The notes beneath the pieces were generated by a model. That model saw only the letters and a program-made list of their open reading frames with translations, was not told the DNA's origin and did not search any database. The translations under genes and the position numbers were made by a program. From contig NZ_AZEE01000030.1 of NCBI RefSeq assembly GCF_001434895.1, positions 286,526 through 350,525 of the forward strand: a DNA stretch of 64,000 nt. Reading direction: 5' to 3'. This document shows, piece after piece, positions 4,251 through 58,427 of this stretch (its first letter is position 1; each line of letters starts with the position of its first letter). The stretch is from Secundilactobacillus odoratitofui DSM 19909 = JCM 15043 (GTDB lineage: Bacteria > Bacillota > Bacilli > Lactobacillales > Lactobacillaceae).

Positions 4251-5885
4251 ATGGTCAAGAGAACAAAGTACGTCGCGACAATAATGGTGGCTGGGGTGGC
4301 CGTCTTACTTGCCGCATGTGGTAAGCAGTCAAGTGACAGCAATAAGCAAACGCTGAATCTCAGCATGTCACAGCCAATCGGGTCACTGGATATTTCAAAG
4401 GCAACTGATTTTAGTCAAACGGGAAACGCCTACGAAAGTTTCTTCCGCCTTGGTAAGAACGGGAAGGTAACGTCCGGTTTGGCGAAGTCCAGCAGCGTCT
4501 CAAAGGATGGTAAAACTTGGACCTTCAACTTGCGGCATGCAAAGTGGAGTAACGGTTCGGCCATCACAGCTCAGGACTTTGTTTATTCATGGCGTAGAAC
4601 CGTAACGCCAGCCACTAAGTCGCAGTATGCTTATCTGTTCAGCGGTATTAAGAACGCGACAAAAGTCAACGATGGTAAGGTTGCCGCTAAGACATTAGGT
4701 ATCAAAGCGGTGGGAAAGCACAAGGTCGTGGTTACACTCAATAAACCAATCGCCTACTTTAAAACGTTGATGACGTACTCGTTATTTGCGCCACAGAGTC
4801 AGCGAATCGTTGAAAAATATGGTAAAAAGTATGCGACACGCTCACAGTACAACGTCTATTCCGGCCCATTTAAGATTGAAAATTGGACTGGGACCGGCAA
4901 TAAGTGGGACTTCGTTAAGAATAACCAATACTGGGATAAAAAGGCCGTGAAGTTACACAAGATTAATTATCAAATTGTCGCCGATAATTCGACGGGATTA
5001 GACCTATACCGCCAAAAGAAGCTGGATTTAACGCCACTTTCAAGCGAACAAGTGAAGAATTATCAAAATAATAAGGCCTTCAAGCAATACGCTTTCGCTT
5101 ATATTACCTACCTCAAATACAACTTCAAGGATCCAAATTCCGTCCGGCGCGCAGCCATTCATAATCGCAATATTCGAATGGCGTTCTCACTGGCAGTCAA
5201 CCGTGATGAATTAACCAAGAAAGTGCTTGGAAATGGCTCAACGACACCAACTGGTTTTGTCACCAGCGGACTTGCAGCTGATCCGGAGACCGGTGAAGAC
5301 TTCGGTCAGGCACAGAAGGTTAAGAACCACGTGGTTTACAATAAAGCCTTGGCCCAAGCCTACTGGAAGAAAGGCCTGAAGCAGTTAGGGTTGAAGAAGT
5401 TGTCCTTAACCGTGACTGCCGCCAGTGATGATCAGACAACCAGCCCGGTCACACAGTACTTGAAGGGCCAACTGGAACAGGTATTACCCGGTTTCAACCT
5501 CGACATCAAACAAGTACCCGGACAGGTTGCCAACCAGCTCGGTCAAAAGGGTGAGTTTGACATGACGGTTTCGAGTTGGGGCGCCGACTTCAAGGACCCA
5601 ATTTCGTTCTTACAGATTCCAGAAACTGGCACGGCTTATAATTATGGGAAGTATAGTAATAAAGCCTACGACGCCTTGATTAGTAAGGCACAGAATCAGG
5701 ATGCCAACAACGCTGAAGCGCGCTGGCATGACTTGGTTCAGGCCAGTCGGCTGTTTACCAAGGATCAAGGGATGACCCCGCTTTATCAACAGACCACTTC
5801 GTATTTGCAAAATCCGAATGTGAAGGGGATTGTGCATAATACGGCTGGTGAGGAGTGGAATTTTAAGACAGCTTATGTAAAGTGA
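4251..5885 (+). CDS. Oligopeptide-type ABC transporter substrate-binding lipoprotein (SBP family 5)
   Basis: Extracellular solute receptor anchored by a lipid-modified Cys. I start it at ATG 4251 behind CAGGAG: MVKRTKYVAT, a hydrophobic stretch, then the lipobox LLAAC with Cys at residue 21. The mature part (about 524 residues) has family features: LNLSMSQPIGSLDISKATD near the N-terminus, SGLAKSSSVSKDGKTWTFNL, WSNGSAITAQDFVYSWRR and, near the end, WGADFKDPISFL. No permease or ATPase genes are adjacent, so it must share a transporter encoded elsewhere. Cys codons in its leader suggest a link to sulfur supply, for example Cys-containing peptides or glutathione; this is inference only. Confidence 0.9.
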   Translation: MVKRTKYVATIMVAGVAVLLAACGKQSSDSNKQTLNLSMSQPIGSLDISKATDFSQTGNAYESFFRLGKNGKVTSGLAKSSSVSKDGKTWTFNLRHAKWSNGSAITAQDFVYSWRRTVTPATKSQYAYLFSGIKNATKVNDGKVAAKTLGIKAVGKHKVVVTLNKPIAYFKTLMTYSLFAPQSQRIVEKYGKKYATRSQYNVYSGPFKIENWTGTGNKWDFVKNNQYWDKKAVKLHKINYQIVADNSTGLDLYRQKKLDLTPLSSEQVKNYQNNKAFKQYAFAYITYLKYNFKDPNSVRRAAIHNRNIRMAFSLAVNRDELTKKVLGNGSTTPTGFVTSGLAADPETGEDFGQAQKVKNHVVYNKALAQAYWKKGLKQLGLKKLSLTVTAASDDQTTSPVTQYLKGQLEQVLPGFNLDIKQVPGQVANQLGQKGEFDMTVSSWGADFKDPISFLQIPETGTAYNYGKYSNKAYDALISKAQNQDANNAEARWHDLVQASRLFTKDQGMTPLYQQTTSYLQNPNVKGIVHNTAGEEWNFKTAYVK

Positions 5886-5949: not shown

Positions 5950-6152
5950 TATGGTCGATGGCTCGAAAAACTGATTTAACAGCGATTAGGGCACTTTTTA
6001 TGTGCGAAAAAGTGTGAGGAGAATTTGACCAAATTAGTATATTTTTATGAACTCATAGCATATTTATGGCAAACACTATTGCCAATCTGTTACTTTTAAG
6101 ACAGCAAAACAGTTGTTGTTACTTTTAGCCCCCCACAATAGGAGGACTCGGA

Positions 6153-8303
6153 ATGAAAAAACAGATTAAGTTGTTCAGTAGTGTATTAGCGTTAGGATTA
6201 CTGATTGGGACTGCGACACCGGCGATGGCGAATGTGAAGAACGCGCAAGAGACGCCTGTTACGCAGACGGTTCGGGATGTTGAGAATGTCGAAGAAGTGA
6301 CTTTGAGTGAAGATGATGTTAGGCTTGACTCACAAGGGAATATCACTGGCTTACAAGCTAATACAGAAACTGCCGAGAAATTATTAGCCGGAGCTGCACT
6401 ACGAATTCCTGATGTGATTGGAGAAACAGCTGTTAAAAGTATTGGCAACTCAACGTTTAGCTTTAACAATCTTCAATATGCAGCAGGTAATTATGATTCT
6501 GAGTTACCGGGAATTTCAAAAGTAACAATCGAAGGAAGCGGAAAAATCGGGAATTATGCCTTCTCAGGAAATTCAATTCAAGAAATTGATCTTCCTGAAA
6601 TTACTGAAATTGGCGTTCAGGCATTCTATGAAAACAAAATCGTCAATATTGATGAAGAAGATGTTCCTAGGTTGGAAATTATTGGAGGGTATGCGTTCGC
6701 GAATAATCAAATTTTGAATGTCAACCTTCCCAACATAACAAAAATTGAATACGGTACATTCTCAAATAATAAAATTGAAAATTTACACTTACCAAATGTA
6801 ACTAAAATCGGAGGCGACGCGTTCACAGATAACCGGTTAAAACATTTAGATTTACCGATGGTTCAAGAAATTGACTACGAGGCATTCGAAAATAATCGGT
6901 TAACTGAATTGGAGTTACCATCATTAAAAGTAATTGGAAACGCAGCTTTCAGAAATAATCTTCTAAACGATGTAAACTTAGATGAAGTCACCTATATTGG
7001 TTCAAATTCGTTTTTAGATAACAATATTTCTAAACTAGATTTGCCAAAAGTTACTGAAATTGATGTTGGTGCATTCATGAGTAACGGAATCAAAGATGTT
7101 AACCTACCTGACGTGGAGACAATCGGAGATTTTGCCTTTTGGCATAATGAAATTAAAACCGTTAACTTACCAGAAGTCACACACATCGGTCAGTCGGCCT
7201 TCGCAAGAAACCAGATTGAGAAACTTGAATTGAAGAATGCGGAAGAACTTGGTGATCGTGCGTTTAGATTAAACTCACTCTTAGAGATTAACTTACCGAA
7301 CGTAAAAGATATTGGTAAATACGTATTCGATTCGCAAAATGTTAGCAGGGAAGTTAACGCTAATGAACAGAATGAAGTAAGTTATGACAAAATCCAACCA
7401 AAGATGTCGATTGGTGGGAATAGCGACCTACTCAAAATTAATCAACTTCTAGTGGACAATGAAAGTGTTAAAGCTGACGACGAGAAGAATATTTTATCAG
7501 TTGAAGGTGATAAGACACTGAAATTAGGAATTGAACTGAAATTTGATTCAGAATCGGTTCGCGGTCAATATTCAATTTCGAAATATGATTTAACTGTCAA
7601 TCCATTTGTTGAAGAAGAAGGCGAAACTCCAGGTGGAGGTGGCGAAGAAGGCGAAACTCCAGGTGGAGGTGGTGAGGAAGGCGAAACCCCAGGCGGTGGC
7701 GGTGAAGAAGGCGAAACCCCAGGCGGTGGCGGTGATAACGGTACTCCAGGCGGTGGTGGCGACACCAACAACGGCAACGAAAATACTACACCTGATAACA
7801 ACACCAACCCAGACAATAATAACCAAAACCAGGGTGGTGGTAACTCAAACACCAACCAATCAACAACTTCACGTCCTCACACAGTTTACGCAAAGCGGGC
7901 AATGCGACTTCACAAGAACGTTTCCTTAACGAGCCCAGTTAAGTCTTACAAGAAACAGAGTCGTGCTAAAGCACAAAGTTTCCGTGTGCTCGGCGTATCC
8001 TATGACAAGAAGGGCAACAAGCGTTACAAAGTGAATGGTGGCTACATTACTGCAAGCTCGAAGTACGTTGCGGACAGCCATTTCCGGAGTAGCAAAGTGA
8101 AGCAAGTTCGAGTAATTGGTAACCGTGTGAACAGCTATAAGGATGCGAAGTTATCTGCTAACCAAAAAGTGCGTTCATACAAGAAGGGTACTAAGCTCAA
8201 AGTGAAACGTATCGTGAAGCACGGTCGGACAACTCGGTTCCAATTAACGAACGGTCGTTATATCACGGGTAACAAGCAACTGTTGATTATGGATCATAAG
8301 TAA
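6153..8303 (+). CDS. Secreted BspA-type leucine-rich repeat surface protein with DUF5776-like C-terminus
   Basis: A 716-residue exported protein behind AGGAGG. Residues 1-27 form a signal peptide ending ATPAMA. From about residue 110 to 395 there are many 23-residue repeats of the pattern NxIxxLxLPxVxxIGxxAFxxN, the BspA/LRR_5 type seen in adhesins. Residues 490-530 form a linker of GETPGGGGEE repeats, followed by an Asn/Thr/Pro-rich stretch. The last 140 residues are very basic, with two copies of a module containing LHKNVSL...SYKKQSRAK and GGYITA / NGRYITG; I read these as the DUF5776-type wall-binding domain of lactobacilli. There is no LPxTG signal, so attachment is probably non-covalent. 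Likely roles are adhesion or cell-cell contact. Confidence 0.85.
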   Translation: MKKQIKLFSSVLALGLLIGTATPAMANVKNAQETPVTQTVRDVENVEEVTLSEDDVRLDSQGNITGLQANTETAEKLLAGAALRIPDVIGETAVKSIGNSTFSFNNLQYAAGNYDSELPGISKVTIEGSGKIGNYAFSGNSIQEIDLPEITEIGVQAFYENKIVNIDEEDVPRLEIIGGYAFANNQILNVNLPNITKIEYGTFSNNKIENLHLPNVTKIGGDAFTDNRLKHLDLPMVQEIDYEAFENNRLTELELPSLKVIGNAAFRNNLLNDVNLDEVTYIGSNSFLDNNISKLDLPKVTEIDVGAFMSNGIKDVNLPDVETIGDFAFWHNEIKTVNLPEVTHIGQSAFARNQIEKLELKNAEELGDRAFRLNSLLEINLPNVKDIGKYVFDSQNVSREVNANEQNEVSYDKIQPKMSIGGNSDLLKINQLLVDNESVKADDEKNILSVEGDKTLKLGIELKFDSESVRGQYSISKYDLTVNPFVEEEGETPGGGGEEGETPGGGGEEGETPGGGGEEGETPGGGGDNGTPGGGGDTNNGNENTTPDNNTNPDNNNQNQGGGNSNTNQSTTSRPHTVYAKRAMRLHKNVSLTSPVKSYKKQSRAKAQSFRVLGVSYDKKGNKRYKVNGGYITASSKYVADSHFRSSKVKQVRVIGNRVNSYKDAKLSANQKVRSYKKGTKLKVKRIVKHGRTTRFQLTNGRYITGNKQLLIMDHK
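7621..7740 (+). repeat. Four tandem 30-bp repeats encoding GETPGGGGEE
   Basis: Four in-frame units of 30 bases (7621, 7651, 7681, 7711), near identical with C/T and A/G third-position changes, followed by a degenerate fifth unit. They code for the acidic Gly/Pro linker of the surface protein. Copy number could change by slippage without a frameshift. Confidence 0.9.
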
Positions 8304-43266: not shown

Positions 43267-44640
43267 ATGAAAATTCAAGCACCTGTATCAAAAAATGAAA
43301 CATACACTGGCACCGTGATGGATCTCACCTACGAGGGACTCGGTGTCGTCAAGGTCGATAACTATTCGTTATTTATCGCCAACGCCTTACCTGGTGAAGA
43401 GATTAAGTTTGTCGTCACCAAAGTCGGGAAAAGTTTTGGCTATGGTCGCGTTTTAGAACAAATCACGACTTCACCAGACCGTGCTGAGATTAAAGCCGAA
43501 GACCGCAAATTGGCGCAAGCCGGGATTGCGCCACTGCAACACATGATTTACCCAGCCCAATTAAAATTTAAACAACACCAAATTGAATCACTATTGGCAA
43601 AGACTAAGATGGATCTGACCGTTTCTGAAACAATTGGGATGGATATGCCTTATCATTATCGAAATAAGGCCCAAATTCCGGTTCGTGAGGTCCGGGGCCA
43701 ACTCGAGACTGGCTTTTATCGCCAACACACCCACGATTTAGTGCCATTAACTGATTTTTATATCCAAGATACTCGAATCGATAAGGCAATCGTGATTGTT
43801 CGTGATATTTTACGCGCGGAAGGGATTGTGCCTTATGACGAAAAAACGCATAAGGGTATCATTCGAAACGTGATGGTGCGTCAGAGTCACTATGAGGACG
43901 AGATGATGATTGGTCTCATCACGAATTCCCACACGTTGCCACACGCTAAAGAAATTGTGGCACAAATTACTGAAAGCTTGCCGAAAGTGACGAGCATTAT
44001 TCAAAACGTTAACAGCCGACCAACTAACGTGATCATGGGCCCAATCACCAACGTGCTTTATGGTGAGTCAGTCATTCATGATTCATTACTGGGTAACCGT
44101 TTTGAAATTTCTGCGCAGTCATTTTACCAAGTCAACCCAGTTCAAACTGAAAAACTTTATCAATTAGCCATTGATCGTGCCGGTTTGACTGGTAACGAAA
44201 CTGTGATTGATGCCTATTGTGGTATTGGTACGATTTCGTTGGCCATGGCACGTCACGCTAAGGACGTATACGGTGTCGAAGTCGTCGCAACAGCCGTCGA
44301 AGATGCTAAGAAGAACGCTAAGCTCAATGACTTGACTAACACCCATTTCGAAGCCAATAAGGCCGAATATCAAATGGCTGAATGGCAAAAGCAAGGCTTG
44401 AAGCCGGACGTCATCGTGGTTGATCCCCCACGTAAAGGTTTGGATGCAACGTTGATTGAAAGTGCTGCGGCTATGGCGCCTAAGAAGGTTGTTTATGTGA
44501 GCTGCAACCCATCCACGTTGGTTCGAGACATTCAACGGTTTGCTGAAGTTGGTTATCATGTCACAGCGCCGATCCAACCCGTTGACCAGTTCCCGCAAAC
44601 GCCGCATATTGAATCTGTTACTTTGCTGGAACGCGATTAA
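43267..44640 (+). CDS. rlmD: 23S rRNA (uracil-C5)-methyltransferase RlmD/RumA type
   Basis: 457 residues. N-terminal TRAM domain (TYTGTVMDLTYEGLGVVKVDNYSLFIANALPGEE), then a Rossmann SAM domain with VIDAYCGIGTISLAMA and the nucleophile Cys in VYVSCNPSTLVRD. The 4Fe-4S motif of E. coli RumA (a CGGC-type cluster before QH) is replaced by AQAGIAPLQHM, so this copy appears to lack the cluster. RBS AAGGAG. Target could be U1939 or U747; sequence alone does not decide. Confidence 0.9.
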   Translation: MKIQAPVSKNETYTGTVMDLTYEGLGVVKVDNYSLFIANALPGEEIKFVVTKVGKSFGYGRVLEQITTSPDRAEIKAEDRKLAQAGIAPLQHMIYPAQLKFKQHQIESLLAKTKMDLTVSETIGMDMPYHYRNKAQIPVREVRGQLETGFYRQHTHDLVPLTDFYIQDTRIDKAIVIVRDILRAEGIVPYDEKTHKGIIRNVMVRQSHYEDEMMIGLITNSHTLPHAKEIVAQITESLPKVTSIIQNVNSRPTNVIMGPITNVLYGESVIHDSLLGNRFEISAQSFYQVNPVQTEKLYQLAIDRAGLTGNETVIDAYCGIGTISLAMARHAKDVYGVEVVATAVEDAKKNAKLNDLTNTHFEANKAEYQMAEWQKQGLKPDVIVVDPPRKGLDATLIESAAAMAPKKVVYVSCNPSTLVRDIQRFAEVGYHVTAPIQPVDQFPQTPHIESVTLLERD

Positions 44641-44676
44641 GGTTGATGTTTCGTTAGCAATTTAGTTTAGATTTAA

Positions 44677-44720
44677 AAATAGGACGATTGTCATTTTTTG
44701 GCAATTGTCCTATTTGTTTA
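44677..44720 (+). terminator. Rho-independent terminator after rlmD
   Basis: AAATAGGACGATTG and CAATTGTCCTATTT pair with one mismatch, followed by GTTT. Confidence 0.8.
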
Positions 44721-44752
44721 CTCAAATTTAGCAGTTGAGACTGCCGTCTCCA

Positions 44753-44920
44753 GTTACCAGAAATCGAGGACAGAGTTGCCGTGGGGTCGGTCCGAGCCGA
44801 AGGGCGGTCTCGGACCTCGAATTCAAGCCCCGCCACAAATCGCGCGGGTCTTTAATTCGACCCTGACTGGTGGGGTGGACCCACCAGTCATTTCACGGCA
44901 AGCCCCCGATTTCTGGTAAC
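44753..44920 (-). ncRNA. Cloverleaf-like structured element A
   Basis: A 168-base segment folds into a closed multi-branch junction. Outer stem: GTTACCAGAAATCG with CGATTTCTGGTAAC (14 bp, perfect). Second stem: TTGCCGTG with CACGGCAA. Three hairpins lie inside: GGTCCGAG/CTCGGACC (44789-44816), AATTCAAG...CTTTAATT (44820-44857) and GACTGGTGGG/CCCACCAGTC (44865-44889). Read on the minus strand, the branch order and loop bases match element B at 45161. Local G+C is much above the flanks. No protein frame fits. It could be a structured RNA, or a mobile palindromic repeat with DNA structure. Confidence 0.65.
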
Positions 44921-45160
44921 TTCCGACTACCTTTGCTGGGGAGTAGACGATTAACAAGCATCAAAGTAGATGGTGTTGATTGTTTGATATCTATTACCGC
45001 TTGATATCAATTGAGGGCTTGGAAGACTCATAATCGCTAATTATTAATGATAATGGTCTCATCAGTTTGTATGCTATCAAATATAGTCGATTGCTATTGA
45101 ACCAACGTGATGTGATCGATTATTATGGATGGTCAGATTCAGCAAATGTAAAGCCGTAGC
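44921..45160. other. AT-rich spacer between the two cloverleaf elements
   Basis: 240 bases with no gene. TTGATATC at 44984 and TTGATATCAA at 45001 form direct and inverted repeats 17 bases apart. Because element A points left and B points right, this would be the shared upstream region of both. Confidence 0.5.
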
Positions 45161-45324
45161 GCCAGCGGTGGGTTGGGACTTGTGGTGGCGGTGATACCAG
45201 GTGGTTTTCCTGGTATCACGGGACGACGTTTGAGCCTCACAACGGTCTTGGGTGAGGCTCAAATGCGAGGGGCGAGACCTTGGCTCGACCCGGTCCCCAC
45301 TTCAGGTCCCAACCCACCGCTGGC
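45161..45324 (+). ncRNA. Cloverleaf-like structured element B
   Basis: A 164-base segment with the same plan as element A. Outer stem GCCAGCGGTGGGTTGGGAC (45161-45179) pairs perfectly over 19 bp with 45306-45324. Inside are GTGATACCAGG/CCTGGTATCAC (45191-45219), TTTGAGCCTCAC/GTGAGGCTCAAA (45229-45263) and a third hairpin with CGAG-ACCTTGG-CTCG (about 45269-45291). The third hairpin of element A (minus strand) is CGAG-ACC...TTCGG-CTCG. The second-hairpin loops also match (CGGTCTTG and CGATTTGTG). Stem sequences differ but pairing is kept. A small hairpin CTGGC-GATA-GCCAG follows at 45331-45344. Confidence 0.7.
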
Positions 45325-45418
45325 CGGAGGCTGGCGATAGCCAGTTTAAGTAACAATGCAGGCTCATAAGAACAGACGGTCGGTCTAGTATCAAGTCGAA
45401 ACCCGATTGCCAAATAAC

Positions 45419-45447
45419 TTGTGGCACAGAGAATTTTAATCTATAAT
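45419..45447 (+). promoter_or_regulatory. Promoter of the glutamate-cysteine ligase gene
   Basis: TTGTGG, a 17-base spacer and TATAAT, with the start codon 40 bases further on. Element B ends about 95 bases upstream. Confidence 0.6.
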
Positions 45448-45486
45448 CAATGCAACGAAACGACATCACATACTGGGGGTTCACGG

Positions 45487-47025
45487 ATGTTAGATAATCT
45501 ATTGGACGTTATAAAAGCAGAAGGCGTTAGCGAACAGCTTTATCACGGTTTAGTGGGGGTTGAAATCGAACAGAATCGGGTTGATAAAACTGGTCGGATG
45601 AGTCGCTTGCCGCACCCAACTGTATTTGGATCACGTACATTTCATCCTTATTTACAGTCAGATTTTGCTGAGGCGCAGACTGAACTCATCACGGATCCGA
45701 ATCCTAATATTGGTGGCGTATTGGATCAACTCGATACCCTACAAACCGTGTTGTATCGCTCTTTACAGGGTGATGATCGGATTTGGCCGTTGAGTATGCC
45801 GCCGAAACTAGATGACGAGGATGAGGCGTTCATTAGGGCCCACTTTGACCGGCCAGCCTACGCGAAATATCGTGACTACTTGTCGCAAAAATACCGGCTG
45901 CAATCCAAAATTGTGACTGGGGTTCACCTTAACTACAGTATTCCGGATCCAGTAATCAATCGACTGTATACCCATTATGAAGATGAGTTTGACCGGGTGA
46001 CAGACTTTCGGAACGCACTGTATTTCAGAATGACCCAAAACCTTGTCTTGAATCGTTGGTTGATGACGTATTTATTTGGTGCGTCACCAGTTGCTGAAAT
46101 CGGCTTCTTCGATGAAACGCCGGCTGAATTAACGCAACCGGTTCGAAGTATTCGGAGTAGTCGTTTCGGGTACGCTAACTTACCACAGGACCAGGTTGAT
46201 GCCACCATCTATCAATCGTTACCGCACTTTGTGGCGCAACTTTCGGATCGAATCGAAAGTGGTACATTGTTCGATCAGGCGGAGTTTTACGGGCCAGTTC
46301 GCTTGCGTGGTAACCAACATTTAGCTGATGACCTGAGTAAGGGGATAAAGTATTTGGAATTTCGTGGCTTGGATACCACGCCGTTTCACGTTAATGGCAT
46401 CAGTCGCCACGCGTTGTACTTTATGAAATTATTCTTTATCTATGCTTTGGTCACGCCAATCGATTCAACCGAATTGGTGGACCAGTTAAAACAATCTGAA
46501 CTGGATAACGAACAAGTTGCACTTGAACGACCCACTGAACCGACGTTTAAGGTCGCTGAAGGCCAACGGATTTTTAAGTCGCTCCACCAGCTGGCGATGA
46601 CGTTAAACGCTCACAGTGAGCAGATTAATGCCTTAGATGATTTTGCGGAAGTGATGAGTCATCCGGAGTTGACGCCCTCAGCCAAGTTAATGTCGCATTT
46701 AACCGATGATGGCAGTTTGATGTCCTTTGGGATTCGGCGAGCTGCGGAATGGAAAGCCAGACGAATTGGCGCTGATCAGTTGCTTCCACGAATGTCACGG
46801 CTATCAGTCCGGGCACAAGAACTCGTTTTTCGAGCGGTTCAACTCGGCGTTCGCTACTATGCCGTTCGTGATGAGCATGGTGAAATCATGCTGATGCTGA
46901 CGTTTAACGAACTCACTCAGGTTATCGAAGCTGATCGATTAGCCGATGAACCAGCAACCGCCTATTTAAAACGGTTATTCCCAGATCTGCCACTACCTAA
47001 GCAGCTGGGAGATCAAGCAATTTAA
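45487..47025 (+). CDS. gshA: Glutamate-cysteine ligase
   Basis: Makes gamma-glutamylcysteine, the first step of glutathione synthesis. 512 residues from ATG 45487 (MLDNLLDVIKAEGVSEQLYHGLVGVEIEQNRV) behind GGGGG. GVEIEQNRVD, HPTVFGSRTFHPYLQSDFAEAQTELITDP and HLNYSIPDPV fit the gamma-proteobacterial/Firmicute GCL family, similar to the N-terminal half of the fused GshF. There is no C-terminal ATP-grasp domain, so it stands as a one-activity enzyme; a separate GshB is not in view. Confidence 0.9.
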   Translation: MLDNLLDVIKAEGVSEQLYHGLVGVEIEQNRVDKTGRMSRLPHPTVFGSRTFHPYLQSDFAEAQTELITDPNPNIGGVLDQLDTLQTVLYRSLQGDDRIWPLSMPPKLDDEDEAFIRAHFDRPAYAKYRDYLSQKYRLQSKIVTGVHLNYSIPDPVINRLYTHYEDEFDRVTDFRNALYFRMTQNLVLNRWLMTYLFGASPVAEIGFFDETPAELTQPVRSIRSSRFGYANLPQDQVDATIYQSLPHFVAQLSDRIESGTLFDQAEFYGPVRLRGNQHLADDLSKGIKYLEFRGLDTTPFHVNGISRHALYFMKLFFIYALVTPIDSTELVDQLKQSELDNEQVALERPTEPTFKVAEGQRIFKSLHQLAMTLNAHSEQINALDDFAEVMSHPELTPSAKLMSHLTDDGSLMSFGIRRAAEWKARRIGADQLLPRMSRLSVRAQELVFRAVQLGVRYYAVRDEHGEIMLMLTFNELTQVIEADRLADEPATAYLKRLFPDLPLPKQLGDQAI

Positions 47026-58354: not shown

Positions 58355-58427
58355 GGCCCCATAGCACAACTGGATAGGGCACCCGCCTCCTAAGCGGATG
58401 ATCCCGGTTCGAGTCCGGGTGGGGTCA
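58355..58427 (+). tRNA. tRNA-Arg (anticodon CCT)
   Basis: A 73-base cloverleaf. Acceptor GGCCCCA pairs with TGGGGTC (one G-T), the anticodon loop is CTCCTAA with anticodon CCT, and the T arm is CCCGG-TTCGAGT-CCGGG. The D stem has one mismatch. No CCA is encoded; the discriminator is A. It reads AGG codons. Confidence 0.93.

Follow-up and report, generated by a model that had tools for sequence, protein, structure and literature searches.

A pair of long, strongly folding sequences lies between two genes of Secundilactobacillus odoratitofui, and the question they raise is whether they are structured RNAs or parts of a mobile repeat. We analyzed them within a window of 64 kb, by which we mean the whole stretch of DNA considered here. 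The initial annotation, made from the sequence alone, described two divergent elements, A and B, 240 bp apart, each consisting of a long closing stem followed by three hairpins, and regarded them as one family of either structured RNA or mobile palindromic DNA. Its coordinates were correct, and the perfect closing stems (Table 1), the third hairpin common to A and B (CGAG-ACC..GG-CTCG), and the CCCCAC that follows it can all be read in the sequence. The folds are as it claimed: the folding energy is −106 kcal/mol for A (z −10.5; shuffles −58.9, SD 4.5) and −112.3 kcal/mol for B (z −10.7; shuffles −65.4, SD 4.4), and in either case 0 of 200 shuffled sequences were as stable.

Table 1. Features of the repeat unit and its surroundings, in window coordinates
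Feature	Position	Strand	Description
Whole repeat unit	44740..45340	.	Arm A + spacer + arm B; (−,+) layout; outer limits approximate
Arm A	44746..44927	-	GUC/GAC 3-bp outer stem, GGA/GGA internal loop, long closing stem, branched core
Element A as first described	44753..44920	-	168 nt; 14-bp perfect closing stem and three hairpins
Spacer	44928..45152	.	Between arms A and B
Arm B	45153..45331	+	GCC/GGC 3-bp outer stem, GUA/GGA internal loop, closing stem, branched core
Element B as first described	45161..45324	+	164 nt; 19-bp perfect closing stem and three hairpins
Upstream neighbor, read as rlmD	43267..44640	+	ORF; next to the gshA-like gene in 7 of 12 stretches from congeners
Downstream neighbor, read as gshA-like	45487..47025	+	ORF
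Hairpin with A and T runs	44679..44714	.	Just outside arm A; recognized by eye

The arms proved larger than first described. Outside the closing stem, both arms carry a 3 × 3 purine-rich loop and a 3-bp stem (GUC-GGA / GGA-GAC in A, GCC-GUA / GGA-GGC in B). This outer plan, a 3 × 3 loop plus three Watson-Crick pairs, is present in 143 of 270 distinct arms, compared with a mean of 25.9 and a maximum of 39 when the 3′ flanks were dealt among the arms in 50 trials. The loop in the 143 arms reads G-N-A / G-(A,G,T)-A, and the pairs bounding it vary: GCC/GGC (80), GCT/AGC (15), GAT/ATC (13), GTC/GAC (12), GTT/AAC (9), ACC/GGT (7), and others. The plan of a closing stem and three hairpins stands with one amendment, namely, that hairpins 2 and 3 probably sit on an extra short helix (GGGAC/GTCCC in B, GGGTC/GACCC in A), which would give two nested three-way junctions. 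Partial support for this helix comes from 78 arms, in which its third pair is G-C in 63, A-T in 9, and G-T in 6, and its fourth pair is formed in 46.

No named family had been assigned to the elements, and neither A nor B reaches an Rfam gathering score. At E values up to 10, Rfam gave nine matches on the 841 bases at A and B, all far below the gathering score and read by us as chance. The single match at gathering score in the whole window is a tRNA gene (58355-58427), and in seven other arm loci only tRNA and group II intron parts were matched, none of them at an arm.

The flanking ORFs presumably encode RlmD, a 23S rRNA methyltransferase, and a GshA-like glutamate-cysteine ligase; a homologue of the latter gene (E up to 1e-50) is present in all 15 genus genomes, the own genome counted. 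The hairpin outside arm A is probably the terminator of the upstream gene, and since a consensus terminator scan of positions 44560-45500 listed none, it is without support from that scan. The spacer contains no listed ORF of at least 60 aa wholly within it and has no blastn match (E 0.01) among the 35 other spacers of the genome, each trimmed by 25 bases per side.

A and B are not alone in their genome (G000; 2.75 Mb, 31 contigs). Sequence searches returned 8 full-length matches with A (86 to 100%) and 8 with B (83 to 100%), self included, plus shorter ones. Scripts yielded 60 candidate arms, from which 7 that were truncated, rearranged, or doubly found and then 10 near-alike S. similis arms were omitted, leaving first 53 and then 43 arms for alignment. 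The first covariance model, R1, was made from 18 of the 43, types with a shifted register of hairpin 1 being omitted; these type-1 arms were aligned with MAFFT (alignment A3), and the structure was set by hand. R1 detects B at 71.5 bits although B was not among the 18 arms, which bears out the original claim that A and B are one family. In the own genome, R1 gave at least 77 matches at E up to 1 with 150 of 649 candidates scored; removal of 5 antisense self-matches left 72 distinct ones. A second model, R2, was built from 78 R1 matches (alignment A5) with an entry limit of E 1.5e-8, chosen to exclude antisense self-matches. It scores the cores of A (44772-44905) at 124.7 bits and B (45176-45309) at 105.6 bits, both having been included in its building set.

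With R2, at least 94 arms were found at 94 distinct places in the own genome, a lower bound given that the model was applied to the 57 stretches around R1 matches. Arm density reaches 14 to 16 per 100 kb on contigs C2, C10, and C11 of this one genome. On the 680-kb contig C5, 4 arms were observed, all in the first 60 kb; the remaining 620 kb yielded no arm, although an even spread would put about 21 there, or, by a hand calculation, about 13 if pairs are counted once. GC skew in 7 sampled stretches of this contig is positive up to 260 kb and negative from 360 kb, and the switch is likely the replication terminus.

The arms have a distinct arrangement. The 94 comprise 36 close pairs (72 arms) and 22 solo arms, and every pair less than 1 kb apart (36 of 36) is in (−,+) order with 3′ ends outward and a gap of 123 to 380 bp between model ends. 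Other genera contributed 34 distinct close pairs from 150 of 167 R2 matches: 31 are (−,+), 2 (−−), 1 (++), and none (+−). The initial annotation is to be corrected in this respect: its two elements are real, and they form the opposite ends of a single repeat unit some 600 bp long. Four equal-score arms on contigs C53 and C61 of genome G065, two per contig, lie in direct order about 360 bp apart and are perhaps a tandem or segmental duplication.

The arms of one pair are homologous, yet they tend to belong to different subtypes. When arms were classed by their 5′ motif, 25 of the 36 pairs joined a G-type to a T-type arm, 5 were G+G, 1 was T+T, and 5 were unclear, so that a strict rule of one G-type and one T-type end holds in only 25. 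Separating the two ends by whole-distance clustering failed, as 17 or 18 of the 36 pairs fell within one cluster in 4- to 6-cluster cuts. A GTAG-like motif, AGCCGTAG, is found at the foot of many arms, on the inner side facing the spacer. Spacers are mostly unlike between copies; a few share pieces of 20 to 46 bp. Solo arms make up 22 of the 58 elements in the own genome and count against a two-ended mobile unit. In one of them (C8:142733-143141, L064), the partner of the A arm is reduced to two stem feet (143107-143141), the cloverleaf interior having been lost. Genes flank 19 of the 36 pairs in tandem (11), convergent (6), or divergent (2) orientation, the 17 pairs with no ORF on one side being left out.

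Comparison with congeners suggests that the unit was added at this locus. Of 12 congener stretches compared, 7 showed both rlmD and gshA, and between match ends their gaps measure 134 to 339 bp, against 850 bp here; on reading, the unit is absent from all 7 gaps. The three longer ones (314 to 339 bp; L325, L327, and L333) hold other long hairpins, so the gap takes several kinds of insertion.

Four recent copies (L363, L366, L377, and L357) indicate roughly where the unit begins and ends. One arm is 96 to 97% alike among them; for the other arm the figure is 90 to 93% among L363, L366, and L377 and 75% for L357. L363 and L377 retain alignable spacers (83% over 78 bp, plus shorter pieces). The outer flanks of the four differ, save some one-side flank common to L366 and L377. 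By eye, homology ends near an outer GGC(A/G)GC or GACAG motif, and the limits of the unit in Table 1 were drawn by analogy with these ends; no target-site duplication was seen by eye in the four copies. There is a tendency toward insertion behind terminators, which is clear in Secundilactobacillus similis and weak in the own genome. In S. similis, an A-run and a terminator-like hairpin lie outside 19 of 35 arm ends, compared with a mean of 0.1 and a maximum of 1 in 20 rounds of a control made of base-shuffled flanks rather than other intergenic DNA. In the own genome, the 36 pairs show terminator-like sites at 10 of their left and 11 of their right inward positions, a weak and uncontrolled figure.

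The unit shares several traits with a miniature inverted-repeat transposable element (MITE): it is short and non-coding, lies at many unrelated sites, and has inverted homologous ends. The initial annotation had named many copies at unrelated sites as the mark of a mobile repeat rather than an RNA gene, and that test favors a mobile repeat; mobility itself we consider likely. Our main reading, to which we give a probability of roughly 0.7, is that the window contains a copy of a MITE-like mobile repeat of Lactobacillaceae chromosomes that is non-coding and non-autonomous and has two ends.

The repeat is unevenly distributed. Among 15 genus genomes, R1 found 76 (own) and 88 matches in two and 0 to 6 in the other 13, with up to 150 candidates scored per genome and antisense self-matches included. 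Across the family, R2 at E up to 1e-4 had matches in 24 of 151 Lactobacillaceae genomes and in 9 of 40 genera; the best 22 candidates per genome were considered, which makes the high counts minima. A degenerate pattern recovered at least 113 stretches in named genomes, and the 80 listed belong to Companilactobacillus, Levilactobacillus, Secundilactobacillus, Furfurilactobacillus, Lactiplantibacillus, Lactobacillus sp., and uncultured Lactobacillus. S. similis (G013) is rich in A-like arms, while a 103-base B query gave two weak matches there (E 0.17 and 0.59), which does not bear out a two-arm unit in that species. In S. similis, many arms are no farther than about 500 bases from the end of a contig, and the repeat seems to break short-read assemblies. 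Plasmid collections (four blastn queries), phage collections (two blastn queries), and viral contigs (three exact patterns) gave no match to queries and patterns of a kind that misses distant arms; such an absence is odd for an active transposon. A literature survey by titles and abstracts, with most subscription papers and all preprints excluded, yielded no description of a Lactobacillaceae repeat of this kind, and a prior description elsewhere is possible.

What has been preserved in the arms is their shape. In alignment A5 (78 arms), which was fitted to R1, 93.0% of cells are paired and 42 of 48 pairs show changes on both sides; slid structures pair at most 37.6%, and every measure beats 500 of 500 shuffles. 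Alignment A3 was not fitted to the structure, although the structure itself was taken from A's own fold, and there 92.1% of cells are paired and 24 of 48 pairs have both-side changes. Neither figure was attained in any of 500 shuffles, and slid controls pair at most 42.4%. The number of further pair types in A3 was not above that of shuffles (139 of 500). The heavy covariation across arms agrees with the selection on structure proposed in the initial annotation, which had staked its reading on compensatory changes, covariation, and the absence of an exact match to a known transposon end; the first two were found, and no such match was.

The mismatches carry information on the strand. What appears as a G-T mismatch on one strand reads as A-C on its complement, and the two are unequally frequent in the arms, in counts that take related copies as independent. 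Read along the outward strand, well-paired columns contain 92 G-T and 16 A-C mismatches in A5, and 187 and 67 in alignment A6. In the closing stems beyond the model, which are untouched by model alignment, the numbers are 77 and 32 over 220 arms. With a neighbor filter inside the models, they are 57 and 13 in A5, and the bias is weak in A6 (102 and 75). In the own genome, G arms have 25 G-T versus 2 A-C outside and 62 versus 15 inside the model, T arms 7 versus 3 and 51 versus 14, and unclassed arms 7 versus 5 and 16 versus 7; the excess thus points the same way in G and T arms. What folds may accordingly be a single strand of each arm, either RNA or DNA, and as far as substitutions can tell, it seems to be the one running outward, for which the bias is support and not proof. 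That a folded single strand, DNA or RNA, is the functional form is a reading we favor to some degree.

A bolder version, which we hold to be doubtful, makes the folded single strand of each end the working part of a family-wide repeat: the branched ends might be recognized by an enzyme not yet linked to such elements, or they might be an RNA or DNA structure adopted by the host and kept from the terminus region.

Less probable again is a reading in which spacer promoters drive the outward transcription of each arm as a structured non-coding RNA, the copies being paralogous RNA genes. The covariation is of a quality seen in RNA, the purine-rich GGA/GGA and GUA/GAA internal loops are bounded by covarying pairs, G-T exceeds A-C in both arm classes, and the own spacer contains one promoter-like pair directed outward toward B (45097-45126, 9 of 12 in a consensus scan). 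Against it, promoter-like pairs are not enriched in 72 oriented spacers (mean best score 7.56 versus 7.68 when shuffled, with 31 of 40 rounds as high), spacers are unlike between most copies, Rfam has no match, and dozens of copies are present, with jumps between species.

We regard as improbable, more so than RNA genes, that the arms are old DNA palindromes in which template switching or gene conversion maintains complementarity, the fold having no function. Two findings speak for it: in A5 most changes exchange one Watson-Crick pair for another, wobble intermediates being few, and the partner of the solo arm on C8 described above retains only its stem feet. However, loop and junction motifs that are unpaired are also conserved across arm subtypes, the G-T bias is unexpected from symmetric DNA repair, and the 3 × 3 loop stays unpaired where palindrome repair would close it.

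Against mobility, no transposase accompanying the unit was found. The Y1 transposase domain (Y1_Tnp, PF01797) has 0 matches at E up to 1e-5 in the own genome despite its 94 arms. We grouped 38 genomes into 17 with arms and 21 others, the latter including G008, which has two weak R1 matches and none with R2. PF01797 is present in 7 of the 17 and 8 of the 21, and the similar frequencies imply no association with arms. A REPIN-like system, that is, inverted palindrome pairs moved by an IS200-like RAYT, is very improbable, since the inverted, non-coding, chromosomal pairs and the GTAG-like motif at the foot of many arms that recall it are outweighed by this absence and lack of association of Y1 transposases, by arms of about 180 nt with junctions instead of hairpins of 20 to 40 bp, and by tagged 5′ sides that face the spacer.

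The group II intron maturase domain (GIIM, PF08388) likewise has 0 matches in the own genome and in S. similis and occurs in 1 of the 17 genomes with arms and 3 of the 21 others. A link to group II introns was rejected on these grounds and because Rfam matched no intron family at the arms of the window or of seven other loci. Two long inter-arm gaps were opened in search of a parent transposon; one contains what look by eye like ordinary genes and the other a group II intron. The first spans 9.6 kb of contig C4, with a B arm at one end and an A arm at the other; it was dismissed as an autonomous element and read as two solo arms. The second, in Companilactobacillus nantensis (L242), has an intron with reverse transcriptase/maturase at 5980-7798 between arms 5645-5779 and 7873-8000; the 5′ side of the intron lies near an arm foot, as if the arm hairpin were its landing site.

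Under the main reading, that of a MITE-like repeat, the unit consists of an arm, a spacer of roughly 100 to 400 bp, and a second arm; the arms are inverted with 3′ ends outward and resemble oversized terminal inverted repeats. In the mechanism that we propose, an enzyme provided in trans would recognize the fold at both ends, probably in the strand that has its 3′ end at the outer edge of the arm, and would place the arm-spacer-arm unit by transposition in intergenic DNA, in some hosts directly after a terminator. The spacer would then decay, and the shape of the arms would be kept through paired changes.

Bacterial miniature repeats are mostly simple hairpins. Here, a branched fold some 180 nt long is represented by 270 distinct natural copies, all of them from a single bacterial family whose members are mostly food bacteria, and paired changes in these copies define the structure almost base by base. 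These arms, together with the range of 0 to 88 matches per genus genome, make the spread and use of the fold testable in laboratory strains that are harmless: how an element without genes and with folded ends spreads, and whether the cell uses the fold.

We found neither a named family nor a known mover for the repeat, and its place is best described by comparison with known systems. Fold-back elements and the terminal hairpins of parvoviruses have branched hairpins at both ends in inverted orientation; the likeness is one of shape only, and no replication or packaging gene was seen with the present unit. Structured RNAs in Rfam share with the arms deep covariation, conserved loops, and junctions, but the arms match no family at gathering score. 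REP, REPIN, and BIME sequences with their RAYTs are likewise inverted palindrome pairs that are intergenic, chromosomal, and non-autonomous, and many present arms have the GTAG-like foot motif. The present arms are far larger and branched, with 5′ tags toward the spacer, and no Y1 transposase was matched in their high-copy host genome; of the GTAG-tagged palindromes of 20 to 40 bp that mark such systems, the arms have the tag in part and not the size. GTAG repeats are described from Proteobacteria, Cyanobacteria, Chloroflexi, and the PVC group, and lactobacilli go unmentioned in the main text of that source (PMC3733652).

The closest likeness is to MITEs such as bcr1 of Bacillus cereus and Efa-1 of Enterococcus faecalis, set against the present repeat by their published descriptions: all are short, non-coding, intergenic, multicopy, and folded, with inverted ends. 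Efa-1 is 163 bp long with 65 copies, and a Lactobacillus johnsonii repeat family within coding sequence is the sole Lactobacillus match in that source (PMC2267715). What sets the present repeat apart is a decaying spacer between cloverleaf arms that are each some 180 nt long and usually differ in subtype, with no parent or target duplication found. The repeat fails as a member of the REPIN/RAYT systems and is best filed as an apparently mobile variant of the miniature repeats with two branched ends.
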